Positions 5,698-23,938 of a stretch of DNA of 23,938 nt are shown in pieces. Each line of letters begins with the position of its first letter. Within the stretch, counting starts at the first letter, position 1. The stretch is from a virus. The DNA is taken from positions 1 to 23,938 of the IMG/VR virus record IMGVR_UViG_3300034020_001354. One strand, given 5' to 3'. The translations under genes were made by a program, and so were the position numbers. The notes beneath the pieces were generated by a model. That model was given only the letters and a program-made list of their open reading frames with translations. It was not told the DNA's origin and did no database searches.

Positions 5698-6636
5698 ATG
5701 GCCCGTGCCTATGGCGCGAACGCCAGCCTCTTGGCCGCGTTCGAAACTACCTATGGCAGCAATCCAGTGGGCGACTACTGGAAACTGCCTTTTGTATCCA
5801 CCACCCTCGGCTCCGAGCAGGGGCTCATTGCGAACGACCTGATTGGCCTGGGGCGTGAGCCCAATGCGCCGATTCGAGATGTGATCAAGGTCGAAGGCGA
5901 CATGGTCGTGCCCGTGGATGTGCGCAATATCGGCATGTGGCTCAAAGCCCTGTTGGGCAGCGCCACCACCACGGGCACAGGCACCCTCACCCACACATTC
6001 ATCTCTGGCAAGTCCAGTTTGCCAAGCCTCAGTCTTGAGACGGGTCTTCCCGATATCCCGGCCTGGTTTGTGGCGTCTGGCGTCATGGTCAACAGCCTGC
6101 AGGTGGGTTTTGCTCGCTCGGGTGCGGCCAATGCCACAGTCGGCCTGATCGCGCAGGGTGAGGTCAAGCAGGCCGCCACCATTGATGCCACCCCGACGAC
6201 GCGAGACATCCTGCGGTTCAACCAGTTTCAGGGATCCATCAAGAAGGGGGGCACTGCGCTGGGTAACGTGGTATCGGCGCAGTTGACCTACTCCAACAAC
6301 CTCGAGCGCATCGAGACTATCCGCTCCGACGGCAAGATCGATGGCGCTGACCCCACGGTGGCCAGCCTGACTGGCAATTTGGAGGTCCGCTTTGCCGATA
6401 CCCAGCTCATCGATGCGGCCACCAACAACACGCCACTGGAGTTGACGTTCGCCTACACGATCGACGCCACCAAGCGCCTGACCTTCATCGCGCATGAGGT
6501 CTACCTGCCCAAGCCCAAAGTCTCCATCACTGGGCCAGGCGGCATTCAAGCCACTTTCGAGTGGCAAGCCGCCAAGAACGTGGCGGCCAACAAGATGCTC
6601 ACCGTCGAACTGCTCAACGACGTGACCACGTATTGA
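5698..6636 (+). CDS. Major tail tube protein (V position)
   Basis: A 312-residue beta-rich protein that follows a 25-nt gap with a strong AAGGAG ribosome site (5686-5691), as expected for a highly made structural protein. The N-terminus (MARAYGANASLLAAFETTYG) and the LIGLGREPNAP and VEGDMVVPVDVRNIGMWLK segments fit the phage tail tube family often seen in betaproteobacterial prophages. The C-terminal part, including ITGPGGIQATFEWQAAKN, is the usual closing region. It forms the stacked hexameric rings of the non-contractile tail. It is longer than lambda V (246). Its neighbours, the terminator upstream and the G/GT pair downstream, agree with this role. Confidence 0.88.
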   Translation: MARAYGANASLLAAFETTYGSNPVGDYWKLPFVSTTLGSEQGLIANDLIGLGREPNAPIRDVIKVEGDMVVPVDVRNIGMWLKALLGSATTTGTGTLTHTFISGKSSLPSLSLETGLPDIPAWFVASGVMVNSLQVGFARSGAANATVGLIAQGEVKQAATIDATPTTRDILRFNQFQGSIKKGGTALGNVVSAQLTYSNNLERIETIRSDGKIDGADPTVASLTGNLEVRFADTQLIDAATNNTPLELTFAYTIDATKRLTFIAHEVYLPKPKVSITGPGGIQATFEWQAAKNVAANKMLTVELLNDVTTY

Positions 6637-6652
6637 TACCCGGGACTTTCCA

Positions 6653-7003
6653 ATGATCAAACTCAACATTCCACGTGAACCGCACTGGATCACACTGGCT
6701 GCTGGCGTGCGCCTGCAGGTCAGGCCCGCCACCACTGCCTTGGTGATGGCTGCGCGCCATGCCGCCGCCAAAGTGGCCGGCACTGACATCGCGGCTGCTG
6801 GCGAGCGCACCGCCACCCTCATCACCGAACTGGCCAAGCTGGCAGTTCTGTCCTGGGAAGGCGTGGCCGATGACAAAGGTCAACCAGCATCCGTCACACC
6901 AGAAGGCGTGGCCGCTTTGATGGAGCACTGGCTGTTGGCCGATGCCTTCGAGCGCGAATACCTTGCTGGCCTGTACGCACTGGAATCGGAAAAAAACGCC
7001 TGA
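6653..7003 (+). CDS. Tail assembly chaperone, G-like
   Basis: A 116-residue mainly helical protein lying between the tail tube and the tape measure, the position of lambda G (140). Lambda G and its frameshifted extension GT coat the tape measure protein and recruit tail tube subunits. The N-terminus MIKLNIPREPHWITLAAGVRLQVRP is a short beta part, and the rest holds Ala-rich helices. The reading frame ends in codons GAA AAA AAC GCC TGA, with a slippery heptamer four codons from the stop. This strongly supports chaperone identity because the frameshift mechanism is typical of this gene pair. Confidence 0.82.
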   Translation: MIKLNIPREPHWITLAAGVRLQVRPATTALVMAARHAAAKVAGTDIAAAGERTATLITELAKLAVLSWEGVADDKGQPASVTPEGVAALMEHWLLADAFEREYLAGLYALESEKNA

Positions 7004-7314
7004 AGGCCCGCACCGCATGGCACTTTGGTGGCGGGCCGAACTACTGCAGTGCCTGCCTTCAAAGCTGTGCTGAGCCATGTCCCGAGTGCCCGTACACCAT
7101 GAATGCACCCCTGAGCCTAGAAGGCTGGCAAGCGGCCTGTGCCATGGAAGTTTGTGCCAGTCAGTTGCGCATGAACCAGGGTCGTGTCGTGGGTCTGGAT
7201 CTGAACGCTTGGATGCTGACCTGCGAGTGCGCTGGATTGGACAAAGCCACGGCGATTGACCTATTTCCGGCTGCAGAGGCGGGCCTGATGAGCACTTTTG
7301 AACAAAACGAATAA
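6653..7314 (+). CDS. Tail assembly chaperone GT-like fusion by -1 ribosomal frameshift
   Basis: A -1 slip on A AAA AAC (6991-6997) joins the first 115 codons of the G-like gene to a second frame open from 6997 to the TGA at 7312-7314, giving about 220 residues. The second frame runs through without a stop, starting RLKARTAWHFGGG, then a Cys-rich stretch (six Cys in 18 residues), then a helical domain with EGWQAACAMEV. An ATG at 7099 in this frame lacks a good ribosome site, so an independent 71-residue gene is less likely. In lambda, GT is made at a few percent of G and the T part binds the tail tube protein. The site and open frame are seen; the ratio of products is unknown. Confidence 0.8.
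6991..7037 (+). promoter_or_regulatory. Programmed -1 frameshift signal: slippery heptamer plus hairpin
   Basis: The heptamer A AAA AAC at 6991-6997 is in the correct phase with the G-like frame. After a 7-nt spacer, GGCCCGC (7005-7011) pairs perfectly with GCGGGCC (7031-7037). Three more pairs (ACC 7012-7014 with GGT 7027-7029) extend the stem past one bulged G. Heptamer type, spacer and GC-rich stem all fit the standard model for -1 frameshifting. The zero-frame stop (7001-7003) lies in the spacer. Confidence 0.85.
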
Positions 7315-7355: not shown

Positions 7356-9959
7356 ATGGCTGAACGCAATCTCTCCATTCGCCTGTCCGTGATCGACGGC
7401 GGCAAGGTCAAAGCCGAGCTGTCCGAAATTGGCGAGAAGGGGGAGCGCTCGCTCAAGAAAATTGAAGCGGCTGCCGCCCCAGCCTCCGGTGGCCTCAAGC
7501 TCCTGTCCAGCGCCGCCAACGATGCCAAGTTCCAACTGCAGGCCGCCACCGACCGACTTGGCATGCTGGGCTCGGTGCTGGGCAAACTCGGACCTGCCGG
7601 TCTGATCGCCGGTGCCAGCATCGCAGCACTCGGTGTGGGCATCACGGCGCTCGTCATGCCGGTGGCCCGGGTGGGTGATGAGTTCTTCAAGCTCTCGCAA
7701 AAGACTGGGGTATCGGTCGAGGCGCTGACCGCGCTGGACTACGCGGCCAAACTGTCGGATGTCAGCACCGAAGGCTTGACCAAGGCACTGCAAAAACTGT
7801 CGGTTGCCATGTTCGACTCCCAGGTCAACGGCGAAGAGGGCAGCGCAGCGTTGAAGGCGCTGGGTGTGTCGGCCACCGATGTGCACGGACAGATCCGTCC
7901 GACCGAGCAGGTCTTGCTGGATCTGGCCGACAAGTTTTCTGTCATGCCTGATGGTGCGGATAAGGCTGCTTTGGCGGTCAAGCTCTTCGGCAAAGAAGGC
8001 CTGGCCATCGTCCCGTTCCTGAACCAGGGGCGCGAGGGCATTACAGCGCTGATGGAAGAAGCGCAGCGCCTGGGCCTGGTCATGTCGGAAGACGTGGCGC
8101 GTGCATCCGAGGTCTTCAACGACAACCTGACGCGCCTGTCTGCCATCTTCGAGGGCGTGCAGCGCCAGATCGGCGCAGCAGTCATTCCGGTCCTGGCTGA
8201 CTTCACCGAGCAGGTGATCCTGGCGCAGGGAGAAACCGGCAGTTTCAGCAATGAATTGCAACGCATCACGTTCAACCGGGATGCCACGCTCGCGTTTCTG
8301 GAGTCGGTGGCCTCGGGTCTGGCCTTCATTGCCGAGTCGGCGGTGCTGGCCAAGCGGGTGATTGCCCAGCCTTTTGACAGCCTGTCGGTGGTGGGCAAGG
8401 ACATCGAGACCTGGTTCAAGACCGATTTGCTGCGCTCAATGAAGTCCATGGGTTACGACCCCAAAGTCATCGATGCGGAAATCGCCAAGCTGCAAGGGGC
8501 GCGTGACGACTACGTGCGCGCTGCCAACGACCGGCTCTTCAACATCAACCAGAACCCGGGCTATGCGGACCGGGTGGCCAAATTCTTCGATGAGCAGCGC
8601 CGCACCGTCCGCGTGATGGGCCAAAATTTTGTGCTCGACACCGAGGCCCAGGCCAAGGAAGTGCAGGCGATTTACGACAAGTTCTTGCCGACGCTGCCGC
8701 GCAAGGCCCGTCCAAACCTGGACCTCTCAGGATTTGAAAAGCCCAAGCCTGCCGAGAAACTCAACGAAGGCGAAGCCTTCCTTAACCAGCTGCGCTCGCG
8801 CCTGACCCGCACGCAAGAGGGTGAAGCTGCCGAACTGCGCGCCCGGGCCCTGCAGATCGAAGCCAAGGGCTACCAAGGGGTGGCGGCTGAGGCCGAGCAG
8901 TACATCCAGGTCCTCGAAGCCATCGAGCGCCAGAAGGAAGCGAACAAAGCCTTCGACGCCTTTGAAAAAGAAGAAGCTGCTTCGCGCAAGATCACCGAAG
9001 GCCTGATTGGCGGCAACCGCCAACGCATCGAAGCCCTGCAGTTGCAGCGCCAGATGCTGGACATGACCGATGGCGAAAAAGCCGCCCTGCAGGCCCGCTC
9101 TGATCTGGAAAAGGCAGCGGCCAATGCGCGGAAGGAAGCCAACCAGATCGAAGACCCGGGTCTGCGGGCTCAGACCATTGAAGCCATCAACGATGCGTTG
9201 GCCAGGCAACTGCCCATCGTTGAAGACCTGGTGCGGGCCAACACGGAATATCAGCGCAATTTTGAGTACGGTGCCAAGTCGGCACTCAGAACCTATATCG
9301 ACGACGCGACCAACGCCGCCAAGCGTGCCCAGCAGGTCACAGCCAATGCGTTTCGAGGGATGGAGGCGGCGCTCACACAGTTCGTGACGACCGGCAAGCT
9401 GGACTTCAAAAGCCTGGCCGATTCCATCATCTCGGACCTGGTCCGCATCCAGATCCAGCGATCTATCACGCTGCCGCTGGCCAATGCAATGTCCAGCATG
9501 GACTGGGGTTCGATGTGGGGCGGTCTGTTTCCGTCCGCGCAGGGCAATGTGTTCAACGCCCCGGCGCTTTCGGTCTACCGCAACACGGTGGTCGACCGTC
9601 CGACAGTGTTCCCCTTTGCCCAAGGGGCAGGCTTCACGAGCCTGCCCCGTATCGGCCTCATGGGTGAAAAACCTGGCAGCCCGGGCGAAGCCATCATGCC
9701 GCTCACGCGCATGCGCGATGGCGATCTGGGCGTCAAAGTCAACGGCGGAGGCAGCACCGTCATCGTCAATGTCATCGAGGCGGCCGGCAAAGGTGGCCAG
9801 CAACAGCAGCGAACCGACAGCAACGGCAACCAGGTGATCGACGTCTGGGTGGAACAAATCACGGCCAAGGTCTGGGGCGATGTGGCGCGTGGTGCCGGTC
9901 CCGGCCCTGGCGTGCTGGCCAACACCTACGGCCTGAACCGCGTGGCAGGCGCGTACTGA
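7356..9959 (+). CDS. Tail tape measure protein (lambda H-like)
   Basis: An 867-residue protein, nearly the size of lambda H (853), that sets tail length and is ejected with the DNA. The N-terminus has short beta and coil segments (RLSVIDGGKVKAELSEIG), followed by a hydrophobic stretch around residues 79-103 (PAGLIAGASIAALGVGITALV), which may insert in the host inner membrane. Long Ala/Glu/Lys/Gln-rich helices with likely coiled coils fill about residues 470-660. The C-terminus, with FPFAQGAGF, a GEKPGSPGEAIMPL segment and a Gly-rich end, is typical of the lambda-family tape measure C-terminal domain. It lies directly after the G/GT pair, its chaperones. No peptidase or lysozyme domain is visible in it. 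Confidence 0.95.
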   Translation: MAERNLSIRLSVIDGGKVKAELSEIGEKGERSLKKIEAAAAPASGGLKLLSSAANDAKFQLQAATDRLGMLGSVLGKLGPAGLIAGASIAALGVGITALVMPVARVGDEFFKLSQKTGVSVEALTALDYAAKLSDVSTEGLTKALQKLSVAMFDSQVNGEEGSAALKALGVSATDVHGQIRPTEQVLLDLADKFSVMPDGADKAALAVKLFGKEGLAIVPFLNQGREGITALMEEAQRLGLVMSEDVARASEVFNDNLTRLSAIFEGVQRQIGAAVIPVLADFTEQVILAQGETGSFSNELQRITFNRDATLAFLESVASGLAFIAESAVLAKRVIAQPFDSLSVVGKDIETWFKTDLLRSMKSMGYDPKVIDAEIAKLQGARDDYVRAANDRLFNINQNPGYADRVAKFFDEQRRTVRVMGQNFVLDTEAQAKEVQAIYDKFLPTLPRKARPNLDLSGFEKPKPAEKLNEGEAFLNQLRSRLTRTQEGEAAELRARALQIEAKGYQGVAAEAEQYIQVLEAIERQKEANKAFDAFEKEEAASRKITEGLIGGNRQRIEALQLQRQMLDMTDGEKAALQARSDLEKAAANARKEANQIEDPGLRAQTIEAINDALARQLPIVEDLVRANTEYQRNFEYGAKSALRTYIDDATNAAKRAQQVTANAFRGMEAALTQFVTTGKLDFKSLADSIISDLVRIQIQRSITLPLANAMSSMDWGSMWGGLFPSAQGNVFNAPALSVYRNTVVDRPTVFPFAQGAGFTSLPRIGLMGEKPGSPGEAIMPLTRMRDGDLGVKVNGGGSTVIVNVIEAAGKGGQQQQRTDSNGNQVIDVWVEQITAKVWGDVARGAGPGPGVLANTYGLNRVAGAY

Positions 9960-19787: not shown

Positions 19788-20735
19788 TCAATCCGTAGTC
19801 TCCGGAACATCCCAGTCCGCCATTCGTGCTTCGCCAGTCTGGTAAAACTGTTTCACCAGCTTCACGTACTCCAGAAAATCTCTGTTCTCCGTAGCCAGTC
19901 GATTGGCCATATCCCAATCGATCTCGTCCCTTTCGCGTGCCGGAATCAAGACCTGACTTTCTGCCGGATTTTCGGCATCCAGTTTGATCAAACCGATGCC
20001 ATGTGCCGCAAACAACATGCGCAGTTCTTTGAGCGTGTCCTGCCCCTCGATCTCTGCCGCGACTAAGTAGCCGAAGTTCGCCCATGACGAGTTCGAGACG
20101 GCCTGGAAAAAGCATTCGCGCACGTTCGACCGGTTGATCAGAAGCTTGGCCTCGAATGACCACAACTTGGTGCGTTTATCCGAATACTGATTGACGCAGT
20201 CGCGGACTTCTTGGTGCCATTCAGCCCCCAAATCCTCCATCCCGACTACGTCAGGGTAGAGCCAACGATTGCCATTCGGCCCGCGTTTATTTGATGAGCG
20301 CTTCTCGTCGATGCGCTTCGAGTAGACACCAAATTCCTCCCACAGATACAGCGATAGCAGTGGGTACAAAGCATGTTCACCCAGTGCCTTACCGTGAACA
20401 TCTACCGTAGCGGACGCCGCAGCGCCCTCAGCTGCCGCAACTTCAGCGACGTCAGATTTTTCGGTGTAGTAGTACTTGCGCGGCCTGCCTTCGGTTGTCT
20501 TTAGCTCTGGGTGACGCCTCTGCAAACTGGGCCGCCGCGAGCCTATTTCCGCAACCAACTGTTGTACCAATTCACCATCGGTCTTGATGTAGCCACCCTG
20601 ACTGTTGGCCTTTTTCTCCTGGCATTCTGCTGGGTAGGTGGTAAAAATCCACTCGGCAATCTGCCTTGCCGTCAGCCTTTCGTCAGGGCGTGCTTTCAAA
20701 CAATCCAGTACGGCTTTCGCCAGATTCAATGCCAT
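19788..20735 (-). CDS. Winged-helix plus PD-(D/E)xK-like nuclease protein (HrgA/COG2958-like), CBASS-linked
   Basis: A 315-residue, two-domain protein. Residues 1-90 look like a HARE-type winged helix (AKAVLDCLKARPDERLTARQIAEWI ... GRPRKYYYT), a DNA-binding module often found on restriction-related proteins. After an Ala/Glu-rich linker, residues 115-255 show a restriction-nuclease-like core: Glu120, Asp162 in YPDVVG, Glu195 and Lys197 in SFEAKLL, and Gln211 in a following helix. This is the order of a PD-(D/E)xK active site. Proteins of this plan (COG2958, including Helicobacter HrgA) are known from defence loci. It is the last gene of the operon, 14 nt after the CD-NTase, with a GGGGAA site 6 nt before its ATG. 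Activity is inferred. It could be a second effector or a DNA-binding controller. Confidence 0.82.
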   Translation of the reverse strand: MALNLAKAVLDCLKARPDERLTARQIAEWIFTTYPAECQEKKANSQGGYIKTDGELVQQLVAEIGSRRPSLQRRHPELKTTEGRPRKYYYTEKSDVAEVAAAEGAAASATVDVHGKALGEHALYPLLSLYLWEEFGVYSKRIDEKRSSNKRGPNGNRWLYPDVVGMEDLGAEWHQEVRDCVNQYSDKRTKLWSFEAKLLINRSNVRECFFQAVSNSSWANFGYLVAAEIEGQDTLKELRMLFAAHGIGLIKLDAENPAESQVLIPARERDEIDWDMANRLATENRDFLEYVKLVKQFYQTGEARMADWDVPETTD

Positions 20736-20749
20736 ATCGTATTCCCCGA

Positions 20750-22087
20750 CTATGAAATATTGACGTAGAAGCGGCCACTTCGGCCAAGGCTGACGCCTCG
20801 TTTCAAGTCAACAGCGAAACACTCGACCCAGTGTTTCCCTCTGTAAAGGGTGTGCTCCCATATCTCTGAACCGGAATGATCGAACCCGCCCCTGAGGCAC
20901 CTTGCGGCCCTTGCCGCCCAGCCGGTGTTAACGATCTGCCATTTGATCGCTATACCATTTGTGAAAGAGTGCTTTGCGCTGAAGTGAAGCCACGTGTCTG
21001 GCGACAAGGCAGGTCCATCAGAGCGGTAGGTTCCGAGGAAATTTCCCTCTTTGGACGAATGCAGCGTCGCAGTAATTTCAATTCGTCCAGCAGGCAAGAC
21101 AGGCCAAGGGGGCCGGGTAACGTGAGACACATCATCAATCTGAGTCTCGATCAGCTTTGCCGCCTTGGTGAGAACCACTGACTTGGCAAAATCATCACCA
21201 AAAATCCTTCGCCATTTGACGATACTCTCGTCACGATCTGTCTCTAAGTAAGCATCCTCAACCCACTCAGCGTAGCGATTGATGCAGGTTCTGAAGTTGG
21301 AATACTTGTCTTGATTCCAATGTCTAGTGAATGATTCTGACGGCAACTTAGGATTCACAACCTCGGGCATATCAGGGTGCTGCTCCAGGTATGCATCCAG
21401 TCTCTTGATCACTGTCCAGAGCGCGGTTGGCGTGTCTGAGAATTCGTTCCCCAGCTCGTCAAGCCAAGAGATGCGTTCACCAATCAACGTCGTCAGCAGA
21501 ATTGATTTGGCTGAAAATGTCAGCTTGAAATCGCGCAGGTACTTCAGAATTCGGACAACCTTGATCAACTGGTTGTTGCCAACATACCCGTTCCGCTGCA
21601 AGAACCACTCTGTATATCCATCGGGATTTGCCTGCTCCTCGACGTCATCCTTGCGATTCAGAATCCATTCCGTGGTTTCCAAAATGCTGGCTCTGCGGAT
21701 ACACGGCACTACATCGATTGAAAACTCCCCCGCATACTGAATCGTTACGCAACGCGTCTTGCGCGACACCTTGTCAGAATAAGTGCCGTGCGCCTTGAAC
21801 TGGTCATACAGATGGTCGATGTAATCTGCCGGAGTCCATTCTTCGTGTGGCTCTAAAAAAGCAACCACATCCGCGTCAAATGATCCAGCGATTCCAGCTG
21901 GCTTGATGATGGTGCGATGCGCCCATGACCCTTGTGGTGTCGTATCGATCAGAATGTCAGAAAAAACATCAAAACCTTCGATAGCGGTAACGATGGAATC
22001 CACTCGCGCTTTCAGCGTGTCAATGCGCGTCTGGTTGAGATTGATAACGTCAGCCAAGAACGTATTGAAATGTTCGGCCAGCTTCAT
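20750..22087 (-). CDS. CBASS CD-NTase (cyclic oligonucleotide synthase) with AGS-C-like sensor domain
   Basis: A 445-residue nucleotidyltransferase of the cGAS/DncV-like (CD-NTase) superfamily. The active site is complete: Gly53-Ser54 in PQGSWAHRT, Asp71 and Asp73 in FDADVVAF, and a third Asp125 in FSIDVVPCI. These bind two metals and join nucleotides into a cyclic messenger after phage infection. A helical SMODS-type part follows to about residue 310. Residues 330-445, with ITATLHSS, WQIVNTGWAARAARCLRGGF and WEHTLYRGKHWVECF, match the AGS-C domain that is proposed to sense a ligand. The ATG overlaps the capV stop (ATGA) with a GGGGGA site just upstream. The messenger (for example cGAMP) cannot be told from sequence alone. 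Confidence 0.92.
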   Translation of the reverse strand: MKLAEHFNTFLADVINLNQTRIDTLKARVDSIVTAIEGFDVFSDILIDTTPQGSWAHRTIIKPAGIAGSFDADVVAFLEPHEEWTPADYIDHLYDQFKAHGTYSDKVSRKTRCVTIQYAGEFSIDVVPCIRRASILETTEWILNRKDDVEEQANPDGYTEWFLQRNGYVGNNQLIKVVRILKYLRDFKLTFSAKSILLTTLIGERISWLDELGNEFSDTPTALWTVIKRLDAYLEQHPDMPEVVNPKLPSESFTRHWNQDKYSNFRTCINRYAEWVEDAYLETDRDESIVKWRRIFGDDFAKSVVLTKAAKLIETQIDDVSHVTRPPWPVLPAGRIEITATLHSSKEGNFLGTYRSDGPALSPDTWLHFSAKHSFTNGIAIKWQIVNTGWAARAARCLRGGFDHSGSEIWEHTLYRGKHWVECFAVDLKRGVSLGRSGRFYVNIS

Positions 22088-22986
22088 TGATTTCCCCCAA
22101 GCAACTGCCGAATGGCCGCTGAGTTATGTGTGAAGTCCTTGTCTGCTCGGCTTATCAAATCATCGAGGGTGCCAATATCATCAAGTGACAATGGCAGATC
22201 GGATTCGAAATTCACCCTCACGGACTGATGTTTGTCCAGAATGAGCTGTGTGACATTGCTGGCCGTTGCCGCTTGGAGGTTCAAGAGCATCGAGATGAAC
22301 TTGGAAATCCCCCAGCCGTTCAGGAATCCCCATTTTCTATCCGCGTTAGAAAGCGGGTAGTAGTTCTTGCCGACCCCCGTCCCTACAGATAACAACCGAA
22401 TCGCGGAACGCTCCGCCCCGAGGCGGGTAAGAGCTTCGGTAACCGCAACTAACGAAGGATTGTTCGCCCATAGCCCGCCGTCGCTCAACTGATATGGGCC
22501 TACCCTTGATGGAGCGAAGTACGACGGCGCACTGCAAGAAGCTAATACAGCATCAACGACCTTAACGTTGCGGTCGCGAACAAACTTCTCGTCGTATGCA
22601 GACTTGAAAACATGCACGCCACCATTGCCGATGTCTGTCGCCGGAATAACAAGTCTTGTCCGTGCATCAGAGAGCGTTGCATCTTCAAAAACAGAAACCA
22701 AAGCCGCACGCAGCGGCTCGCTCGAATAGCGAGGGGCAATGGTGCCGCCGAATGTCCACCTCTTCGGTCTGAAGATATTCGGCCCCTTTTCTCGATAAAG
22801 CTCTGTAACCTTTGAAATCGGAATGCCAAATGCAATCGCGGCGGCGATGATGGAGCCAGTGCTCGTGCCAGCAATCAGATCGAATTCGCTGTGAAATTCA
22901 GTTTTGAATTCCTTCTGAATGCGCTCCAGGACATGGCTAGCATAGATTCCGCGAATTCCACCGCCATCAATTGCGAGCAATTTCAT
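22084..22986 (-). CDS. capV: CBASS patatin-like phospholipase effector (CapV-like)
   Basis: A 300-residue patatin-like phospholipase. The oxyanion loop GGGIRG (residues 8-13), the nucleophile Ser42 in GTSTG and the Asp169 in SDGGLWANNP form the full Ser-Asp dyad site. In CBASS, CapV is switched on by the cyclic nucleotide and degrades the inner membrane, killing the infected cell. The start chosen is ATG 22984-22986 (MKLLAIDGGG), which puts the Gly-rich loop at the usual distance from the N-terminus. A GTG at 23004 that overlaps the hsdR stop (GTGA) would add six residues. Either way, translation is tightly linked to hsdR. No membrane segment is visible. It precedes the CD-NTase with a four-base overlap. 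Confidence 0.92.
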   Translation of the reverse strand: MKLLAIDGGGIRGIYASHVLERIQKEFKTEFHSEFDLIAGTSTGSIIAAAIAFGIPISKVTELYREKGPNIFRPKRWTFGGTIAPRYSSEPLRAALVSVFEDATLSDARTRLVIPATDIGNGGVHVFKSAYDEKFVRDRNVKVVDAVLASCSAPSYFAPSRVGPYQLSDGGLWANNPSLVAVTEALTRLGAERSAIRLLSVGTGVGKNYYPLSNADRKWGFLNGWGISKFISMLLNLQAATASNVTQLILDKHQSVRVNFESDLPLSLDDIGTLDDLISRADKDFTHNSAAIRQLLGGNQ

Positions 22987-23000
22987 AGTAACCAATCTCG

Positions 23001-23938
23001 TCACCCGCCGTTCTTGTCGGATGTTCGGATTTGTTGGTACACAGCCCGCATCAGATGGCTCGCTGCAACATTCCTAAACGCCTCATCGTTCATCAGGCGT
23101 ACAAAGATTTCTTCGTTGCCGTCCATGCGTTCGATGAACAGGTTCTCAAGTTGCTTGTTGAATACCGGTTCGAAGTTTTCGATGCTGTTGGCCATGACGG
23201 CCTGTCGCAACTGTTCGTTGGCTACGGCTGTTTCACGGACTTGATCGAAGAAGAGCTGGTCGGCCGGGGTGAACTCTGTGCCGAAGCGCTCATTGAGCTT
23301 GCCAACTAAGGTCGAAAGCTGCACATCTTCGTCGGCTTGGCCCGTACCCACATCCGTCGGTCCCTCAAGTGCATCGGCTTCGCCCGTCTTCAGATCAATT
23401 GCTCCCTCGCTGATTTTTTGCAGTCGGTAGTACTTGAGCTCGACCTCATCGTCGACTTGCACCGTCCGGTTGTCTGTGGTGCGCGGCAGCTTCGTCAGCA
23501 GGAAACGGGCGTAGGTGTACAGCTTCTCGTGATCGGAGTCCTGGTAAGGGACGATCTGGGAAACAAAGCCGTACAGGTTGCGGAAGCTAACCAGCTGCCC
23601 CTTGAACAGGTTCTGGTCTTCTTCCCCGAACTGCTTGAACCGCTCAATCGCCAGATCAAGTAGGCCATTCAATTTCTTATGTTCGCCGCCCGTGGGGTTC
23701 AGCCGGTTGCGGAACCAGATTTCGCACCAAGCACTGACCTCGGCTTCGGTATAGATTTTCCAGTTGGCTAGTGTGTGCGCCAGCGTGTTGAGCTGTTGTG
23801 GGTCGGTATCGTCGCCCTTGTCTGTCGCTTCGTAATACGGCTTGAAGGCGGTGTAGATTTCCGCAGGCTCGTTGACAAAATCGAGTACGAACGTGTCGGT
23901 CTTGCCTCGTGTCGTTCGATTCAGGCGCGAGAGTGTCT
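23001..23938 (-). CDS. hsdR: Type I restriction enzyme R subunit (hsdR), C-terminal part, cut by window edge
   Basis: The last ~312 codons of an hsdR gene that begins outside the window. The first visible residues, TLSRLNRT followed by GKTDTFVLDFVN, are helicase motif VI and the following strand typical of HsdR, the subunit that translocates and cuts unmodified DNA. The rest is the helical C-terminal domain that docks on the methylase core. Internal starts such as TTG 23670-23672 are not real starts, since the frame is open to the edge. The hsdM and hsdS genes should lie beyond the edge. The stop (TGA 23001-23003) overlaps a possible GTG start of capV. Confidence 0.9.
   Translation of the reverse strand, partial: TLSRLNRTTRGKTDTFVLDFVNEPAEIYTAFKPYYEATDKGDDTDPQQLNTLAHTLANWKIYTEAEVSAWCEIWFRNRLNPTGGEHKKLNGLLDLAIERFKQFGEEDQNLFKGQLVSFRNLYGFVSQIVPYQDSDHEKLYTYARFLLTKLPRTTDNRTVQVDDEVELKYYRLQKISEGAIDLKTGEADALEGPTDVGTGQADEDVQLSTLVGKLNERFGTEFTPADQLFFDQVRETAVANEQLRQAVMANSIENFEPVFNKQLENLFIERMDGNEEIFVRLMNDEAFRNVAASHLMRAVYQQIRTSDKNGG

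Follow-up and report, generated by a model that had tools for sequence, protein, structure and literature searches.

The window analysed here is an entire IMG/VR virus record of 23,938 bases, and the locus of interest is a G/T gene flanked by the tail tube gene on one side and the tape measure gene on the other, both found in a Pfam scan, which is the place of a tail assembly chaperone gene; a tail terminator (phrog_4204) lies farther upstream, giving the usual tail gene order (Table 1). At its 3′ end the G ORF reads TCG GAA AAA AAC GCC TGA in frame 0, and the heptamer A AAA AAC contained in it is in phase for a −1 shift. The −1 frame then stays open for 105 codons (6997–7311) up to a TAA at 7312–7314, which gives a predicted GT product of 115 + 105 = 220 aa. 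Such an in-phase X XXY YYZ heptamer near the end of G, followed by a long open −1 frame, is the layout of a tail chaperone gene, and the preliminary description had read the in-phase heptamer, the 7-nt spacer and the second open frame correctly. The window holds two copies of A AAA AAC, both on the + strand and none on the − strand, and a scan of 19 + strand ORFs met one in phase; the same ORFs hold 12 in-phase XXXYYYZ heptamers of all types, counting this site, so the motif class is by itself no rarity.

Table 1. Features of the G/T locus and its flanking tail genes in the window.
Feature	Position	Strand	Evidence or remark
Tail tube protein	5698..6636	+	Phage_tube_2 PF18906, E 3.9e-56
G, tail assembly chaperone, 0-frame product, 116 aa	6653..7003	+	ORF; phrog_313; fold weakly nearest HK97 2OB9
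Slippery heptamer A AAA AAC, in −1 phase	6991..6997	+	Sequence, ORF scan
T, −1-frame extension, 105 codons and stop	6997..7314	+	pN/pS; DUF7697 below cut-off; presumed access from G by frameshifting
Spacer, 7 nt	6998..7004	+	
0-frame stop TGA	7001..7003	+	Stop at the same place in 89/89 distinct close relatives
Putative stimulatory stem-loop (7 bp, bulged G, 4 bp, 10-nt loop)	7005..7037	+	Fold, covariation, synonymous recodings
T cysteine cluster: Cys 19, 22, 26, 30, 33 (−1 frame numbered from 6991)	7045..7089	+	T alignment
71-aa ORF, a gene caller's likely call instead of T	7099..7314	+	Starts at the frame's first ATG/GTG/TTG
Pfam DUF7697 match within T, residues 63–101	7177..7293	+	22.6 bits, cut-off 27
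Tape measure protein	7356..9959	+	Tape_meas_lam_C PF09718, E 4.4e-27

The 0-frame product belongs to a chaperone family by profile. G of the window matches phrog_313, named 'Tail assembly chaperone', with an E-value of 5.1e-8, and the same profile is matched (E ≤ 0.01) by all 46 G sequences of alignment A5, a subset of the 59 G sequences compiled; G matched no Pfam family, and neither G nor T matched an NCBIfam family. The AlphaFold2 model of G (pLDDT 91.6) has as its top PDB match, and nearest solved structure, the HK97 tail assembly chaperone 2OB9. This match is weak both in Foldseek (E 0.34, probability 0.60, 13% identity) and in VIA-align, where 2OB9 is the sole entry listed at Z ≥ 2 (Z 5.5, rmsd 5.3 over 94 residues, 5% identity) and falls under the tool's safe level. 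The T model (pLDDT 87.6, with the lowest value, 62, at residues 21–30 among the cysteines) found no useful match in the PDB (Foldseek, best E 1.4). Against BFVD, four of its six best matches carry the name 'Tape measure chaperone' (best E 0.029, TM 0.68); these come from Serratia, Klebsiella, Enterobacter and Escherichia phages and are weak (E 0.03 to 0.28), as is match 11, the 'pre-tape measure chaperone' of Caulobacter phage CcrSC (E 1.3). Searches of PDB sequences with the G and T profiles gave no useful match, one returning none and the other two hits at E 0.86 and 0.89. None of the structure matches of G and T has an E-value at or below 0.001; weak as they are by this measure, the model-based matches point in the same direction.

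The preliminary description had named conservation of the heptamer in relatives as a check on its reading, and the reading survived that check. We assembled 342 loci, of which 340 carry the T motif and 170 are distinct; two of these (L295 and L316) have unread bases N within the heptamer, and 168 are readable. All 168 keep an in-phase heptamer, located exactly 27 nt 5′ of a conserved Trp codon (WHFG-type motif), which is A AAA AAC in 138, G GGA AAC in 27 and A AAA AAA in three. A chance heptamer is ruled out by this fixed offset, as the three heptamers together occur at about 0.00026 per position in the fetched genome loci. Every one of the 81 loci in the first set, 80 of them retrieved with G and one with T, has A AAA AAC, including one whose G is 45% identical. 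Because many loci had been fetched by the T motif, which the script also required together with one cysteine near the start of T, loci fetched by G alone were considered separately, and A AAA AAC is found in 158 of these 160, many of them the same contigs fetched twice. The two exceptions are L260, which has A AAA AAC with an altered motif, and L250, whose sequence stops at G residue 102, before the site. One further locus, L283, carries a 0-frame stop directly 5′ of the heptamer and is apparently a degraded copy.

Purifying selection acts on the −1 frame ahead of every start codon that T could use. Over its codons 3–36, which precede any T-frame start codon in the window, pN/pS between the window and 17 relatives (themselves related) is 0.081, compared with values of 3.68 for frame 0 and 1.00 for frame +1. 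This protein-level conservation upstream of the ATG at 7099 stands against the idea that T is a separate gene translated from that ATG, with the heptamer incidental. Such a gene would agree with the ATG-started 71-aa ORF, with the annotation of Synechococcus phage Sc-Yong805-1, which splits the two parts into separate genes, and with the gene table of VarioGold, in which a DUF1799 gene of its own follows the chaperone gene (PMC9658991). Yet 41 of the 168 relatives have no ATG, GTG or TTG between the slip and T codon 45, five have no ATG anywhere in T after the slip, and the heptamer is retained in every readable relative; nor did inspection by eye of the 20 bases upstream of 7099 find a clear Shine–Dalgarno sequence, only GAG 12 nt upstream. 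Coding conservation 5′ of the ATG, combined with relatives devoid of a usable start, leads us to reject independent initiation at 7099, and we regard a separate T gene as highly improbable. Just as little credence can be given to a change of frame made by RNA polymerase, rather than the ribosome, slipping on the run of A. Seven A do occur in the window and in 137 of the 168 relatives, but 27 relatives have at the same place G GGA AAC, with only three A, one has six A, and six A also stand at several DUF1799-type sites. The phase of the heptamer is invariant and the A run is not, so it is the phase that is conserved, and the replacement of the A run in those 27 leads us to reject transcriptional slippage as a general mechanism. 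Ribosomal frameshifting from G into T is the reading that we retain.

A GC-rich stem-loop after the heptamer likely has a stimulatory role in this shift, as far as folding and comparative sequence statistics can indicate. The 7-bp stem noted in the preliminary description pairs 7005–7011 with 7031–7037 and stands; its extension consists of four further pairs (7012–7015 with 7026–7029), not three, beyond a bulged G at 7030 that had gone unmentioned. The folding energy of the stem is ordinary for its dinucleotide content (z −0.90, with 36 of 200 shuffles at least as stable), the lowest-energy fold differs from it when 80 or 101 nt are folded, and L097 and a few other relatives do not fold it. 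These observations would suit an account in which the heptamer works and the stem-loop has no part, slippage being set by the tRNAs with or without, perhaps, an upstream Shine–Dalgarno-like element. We consider that account unlikely in view of the comparative evidence. The 47 nt after the heptamer in the window are stabler than 95.7% of 3000 synonymous recodings, and 40 relatives sampled from 85 eligible segments have a mean z of −1.34 against their recodings (37 of 40 negative). In an alignment of 58 representative segments, from which one more (L102) was omitted, 86.2% of cells form the stem versus 79.5% in shuffles, none of 500 reaching 86.2%, while sliding it by 1–3 columns leaves 34–61% of cells paired; cells changed on both sides number 42 versus 16.9. 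The sequences are related, and these stem statistics are therefore not independent of one another.

The pairing appears to come in two registers. One free of the bulge fits 75.9% of cells and does better in the 18 sequences with Leu at T residue 7 than in the 40 with Arg. Exchanging the two Gly codons of the 3′ arm costs the Leu subtype 4.0 kcal/mol on average (11 of 14 testable sequences destabilised), whereas the Arg subtype, to which the window belongs, is not weakened (15 of 31 destabilised, mean −0.29), a neutrality that favours the account without a stem. Codon usage also differs: the last two Gly codons of WHFGGG (columns 40–45 of alignment A3, window 7030–7035) are mostly GGC-GGG with Arg-7 (32 and 34 of 40) and mostly GGG-GGC with Leu-7 (13 and 14 of 18), a preference by subtype that fits the two registers.

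The T sequence of the window matches Pfam DUF7697 (PF24752) with an E-value of 1e-4 and 22.6 bits, below the curated cut-off of 27, and has no match to DUF1799 (PF08809) at E ≤ 0.01; it is therefore a relative of these families and not a member. It also matches phrog_11212, of unknown function, and the DUF7697 and phrog_11212 models cover only about 40 residues in the second half of T. A Pfam scan of the aligned T sequences (E ≤ 0.01) found DUF7697 in 59 of 60 and DUF1799 in 15 of 60. Of the 60 T sequences in alignment A4, 27 match the profile phrog_680 (E ≤ 0.01), whose name, 'tail length tape measure protein', may be wrong; phrog_680 may be another T family. The T of L079, an IMG/VR locus, reaches 144 residues through an internal tandem duplication of about 40 residues, either real or an assembly fault.

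Whole genomes were also searched with the DUF models, which are independent of the T motif, some of the loci found overlapping places fetched earlier by other means. DUF1799 gave 23 hits in 17 of 200 genomes in the order of G002, and 22 of the 23 have an in-phase heptamer after at least 90 open 0-frame codons (20 A AAA AAC and two G GGA AAC); the hit without one, L370, adjoins L368 on the same contig. Among 274 genomes of the class there were six DUF1799 hits, one shared with the first set, and four of the five new ones have the heptamer; the fifth, L384, has neither a heptamer nor a G seen upstream and is apparently a degraded copy. With DUF7697, four genomes chosen for holding relatives gave five hits in three genomes, all with the heptamer, and no match in the fourth, G001, which holds the relative L278. 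Another 199 genomes, in the order of G004, gave 12 DUF7697 hits in nine genomes, one already counted; nine of the 11 new hits have the heptamer after an open G, L375 has the heptamer, and L376 has it behind a G interrupted upstream, apparently as a degraded copy. One of the three heptamers would be met by chance in about 2% of random 60-codon stretches of such DNA. DUF7697 and DUF1799 thus look like the frameshift-encoded T domain. Among the 14 control genomes, that of Caulobacter vibrioides also gave a DUF7697 match.

The 60 aligned T sequences share four cysteine columns without exception, and each of the 166 distinct T at least 75 aa long has four cysteines, which follow the pattern [YF]C-x2-C...C...CP in 164 and are spaced differently in the other two. 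It is a guess that the four conserved cysteines of the T family may bind zinc; among the literature matches listed, no relevant report linked a tail assembly chaperone with a zinc finger, frameshift and cysteine. A broader and tentative proposal, to which we give somewhat less than even odds, is that a single T-domain superfamily, produced solely through −1 frameshifting at AAC-type heptamers, unites DUF7697 and DUF1799 as two branches, and that the DUF7697 branch, the one akin to this T, holds zinc in the four-cysteine cluster. If true, tail-tube recruitment in these phages would depend on metal or redox state.

Two-product chaperone genes of this kind are known from several tailed phages and related viruses. 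The slippery heptamer of lambda G/GT is G GGA AAG. Lambda and the window share a two-product gene with a −1 frameshift near the end of G, and the lambda products are described as being made at a ratio of 30:1, the G part binding the tape measure and the T part the major tail protein (PMC5009743). Compared with that description of lambda, the window differs in having A AAA AAC, a cysteine cluster in T and kinship with DUF7697. Two Caulobacter phages, phiCbK with A AAA AAC and Colossus with G GGA AAC, have a pre-tape-measure chaperone gene just before the tape measure gene (PMC3556154); both heptamers and the gene place are those of the window's family, although these phages are absent from the sequence relatives found. 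Predicted frameshifts beside the 0-frame stop of the chaperone have likewise been described for gp12/gp13 of Acinetobacter phage Loki, with A AAA AAC (PMC5313236), and for gp18/gp19 of Burkholderia phage KL1, with G GGA AAC (PMC3483164), where the likeness seen to the window's family is one of heptamers and site layout. A AAA AAC is also predicted for the tail chaperone of IME_AB3 (PMC5313236), and the same heptamers are reported in tail chaperones of haloarchaeal HCTV viruses (PMC5009743). Frameshifting of 6% and 7% was measured for two genes of an HK97-like chaperone cluster (PMC3711429). RcOceanus and ten other Rhodobacter capsulatus phages (11 records) hold sequence relatives of both G (31–33% identity) and T (32%). 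RcOceanus itself has G GGA AAC at the homologous place and, unlike the window, a 0-frame product that extends 29 codons past the slip.

We therefore read the locus, with a probability of about 0.95, as the G/GT tail assembly chaperone gene of a tailed phage or prophage with relatives in proteobacteria, in which a minority −1 slip yields GT. The GT tail chaperone proposed in the preliminary description is upheld by where the gene lies, by the conserved heptamer, by protein-level conservation of the −1 frame and by profile matches, and weakly by fold. Most ribosomes would read G to its TGA and release the 116-aa product. A minority, their P and A sites occupied by tRNA-Lys (on AAA) and tRNA-Asn (on AAC), would shift back by one base at A AAA AAC, probably aided by the stem-loop. 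Slipped ribosomes would continue through ...SEKN-RLKA... to 7311 and complete the 220-aa GT. The lambda system suggests, by analogy, that the tape measure protein would be bound both by G and by the G portion of GT, and that T would recruit the tail tube subunit, which is encoded just upstream.

The frameshift itself is textbook, ordinary but sound, and phiCbK, Loki and KL1 are published cases with the same heptamers. The present analysis adds that DUF7697 and DUF1799 are the likely T domain, and that the T family has four conserved cysteines. DUF7697, DUF1799 (Pfam families of unknown function) and phrog_11212 become readable as the T part of a tail chaperone, and hypothetical genes in proteobacterial prophages could accordingly be renamed and joined. 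We found no mention of DUF7697 by name in the papers searched, and the one mention of DUF1799 found there is the VarioGold gene table cited above. The expectation that automatic annotation would miss or misplace the second product held for Sc-Yong805-1, where the two parts are two separate hypothetical genes, but not for RcOceanus, where a joined two-piece product is already annotated. According to the PRFect preprint, a joined frameshift gene is annotated in 2,476 of 3,679 SEA-PHAGES genomes, and 2,397 of these genes are tail assembly chaperones (PMC10274946).

Apart from the tail genes, a CBASS-like gene pair was seen on the − strand (20750–22087 and 22084–23004), close to the lysis genes in the right-hand part of the record; the adjoining 19788–20735 matched no Pfam or PADLOC family. 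The first gene of the pair encodes a CD-NTase (SMODS and AGS_C; PADLOC cyclase, E 8.1e-157), and the second a patatin-like phospholipase (PADLOC effector, E 1.4e-93).
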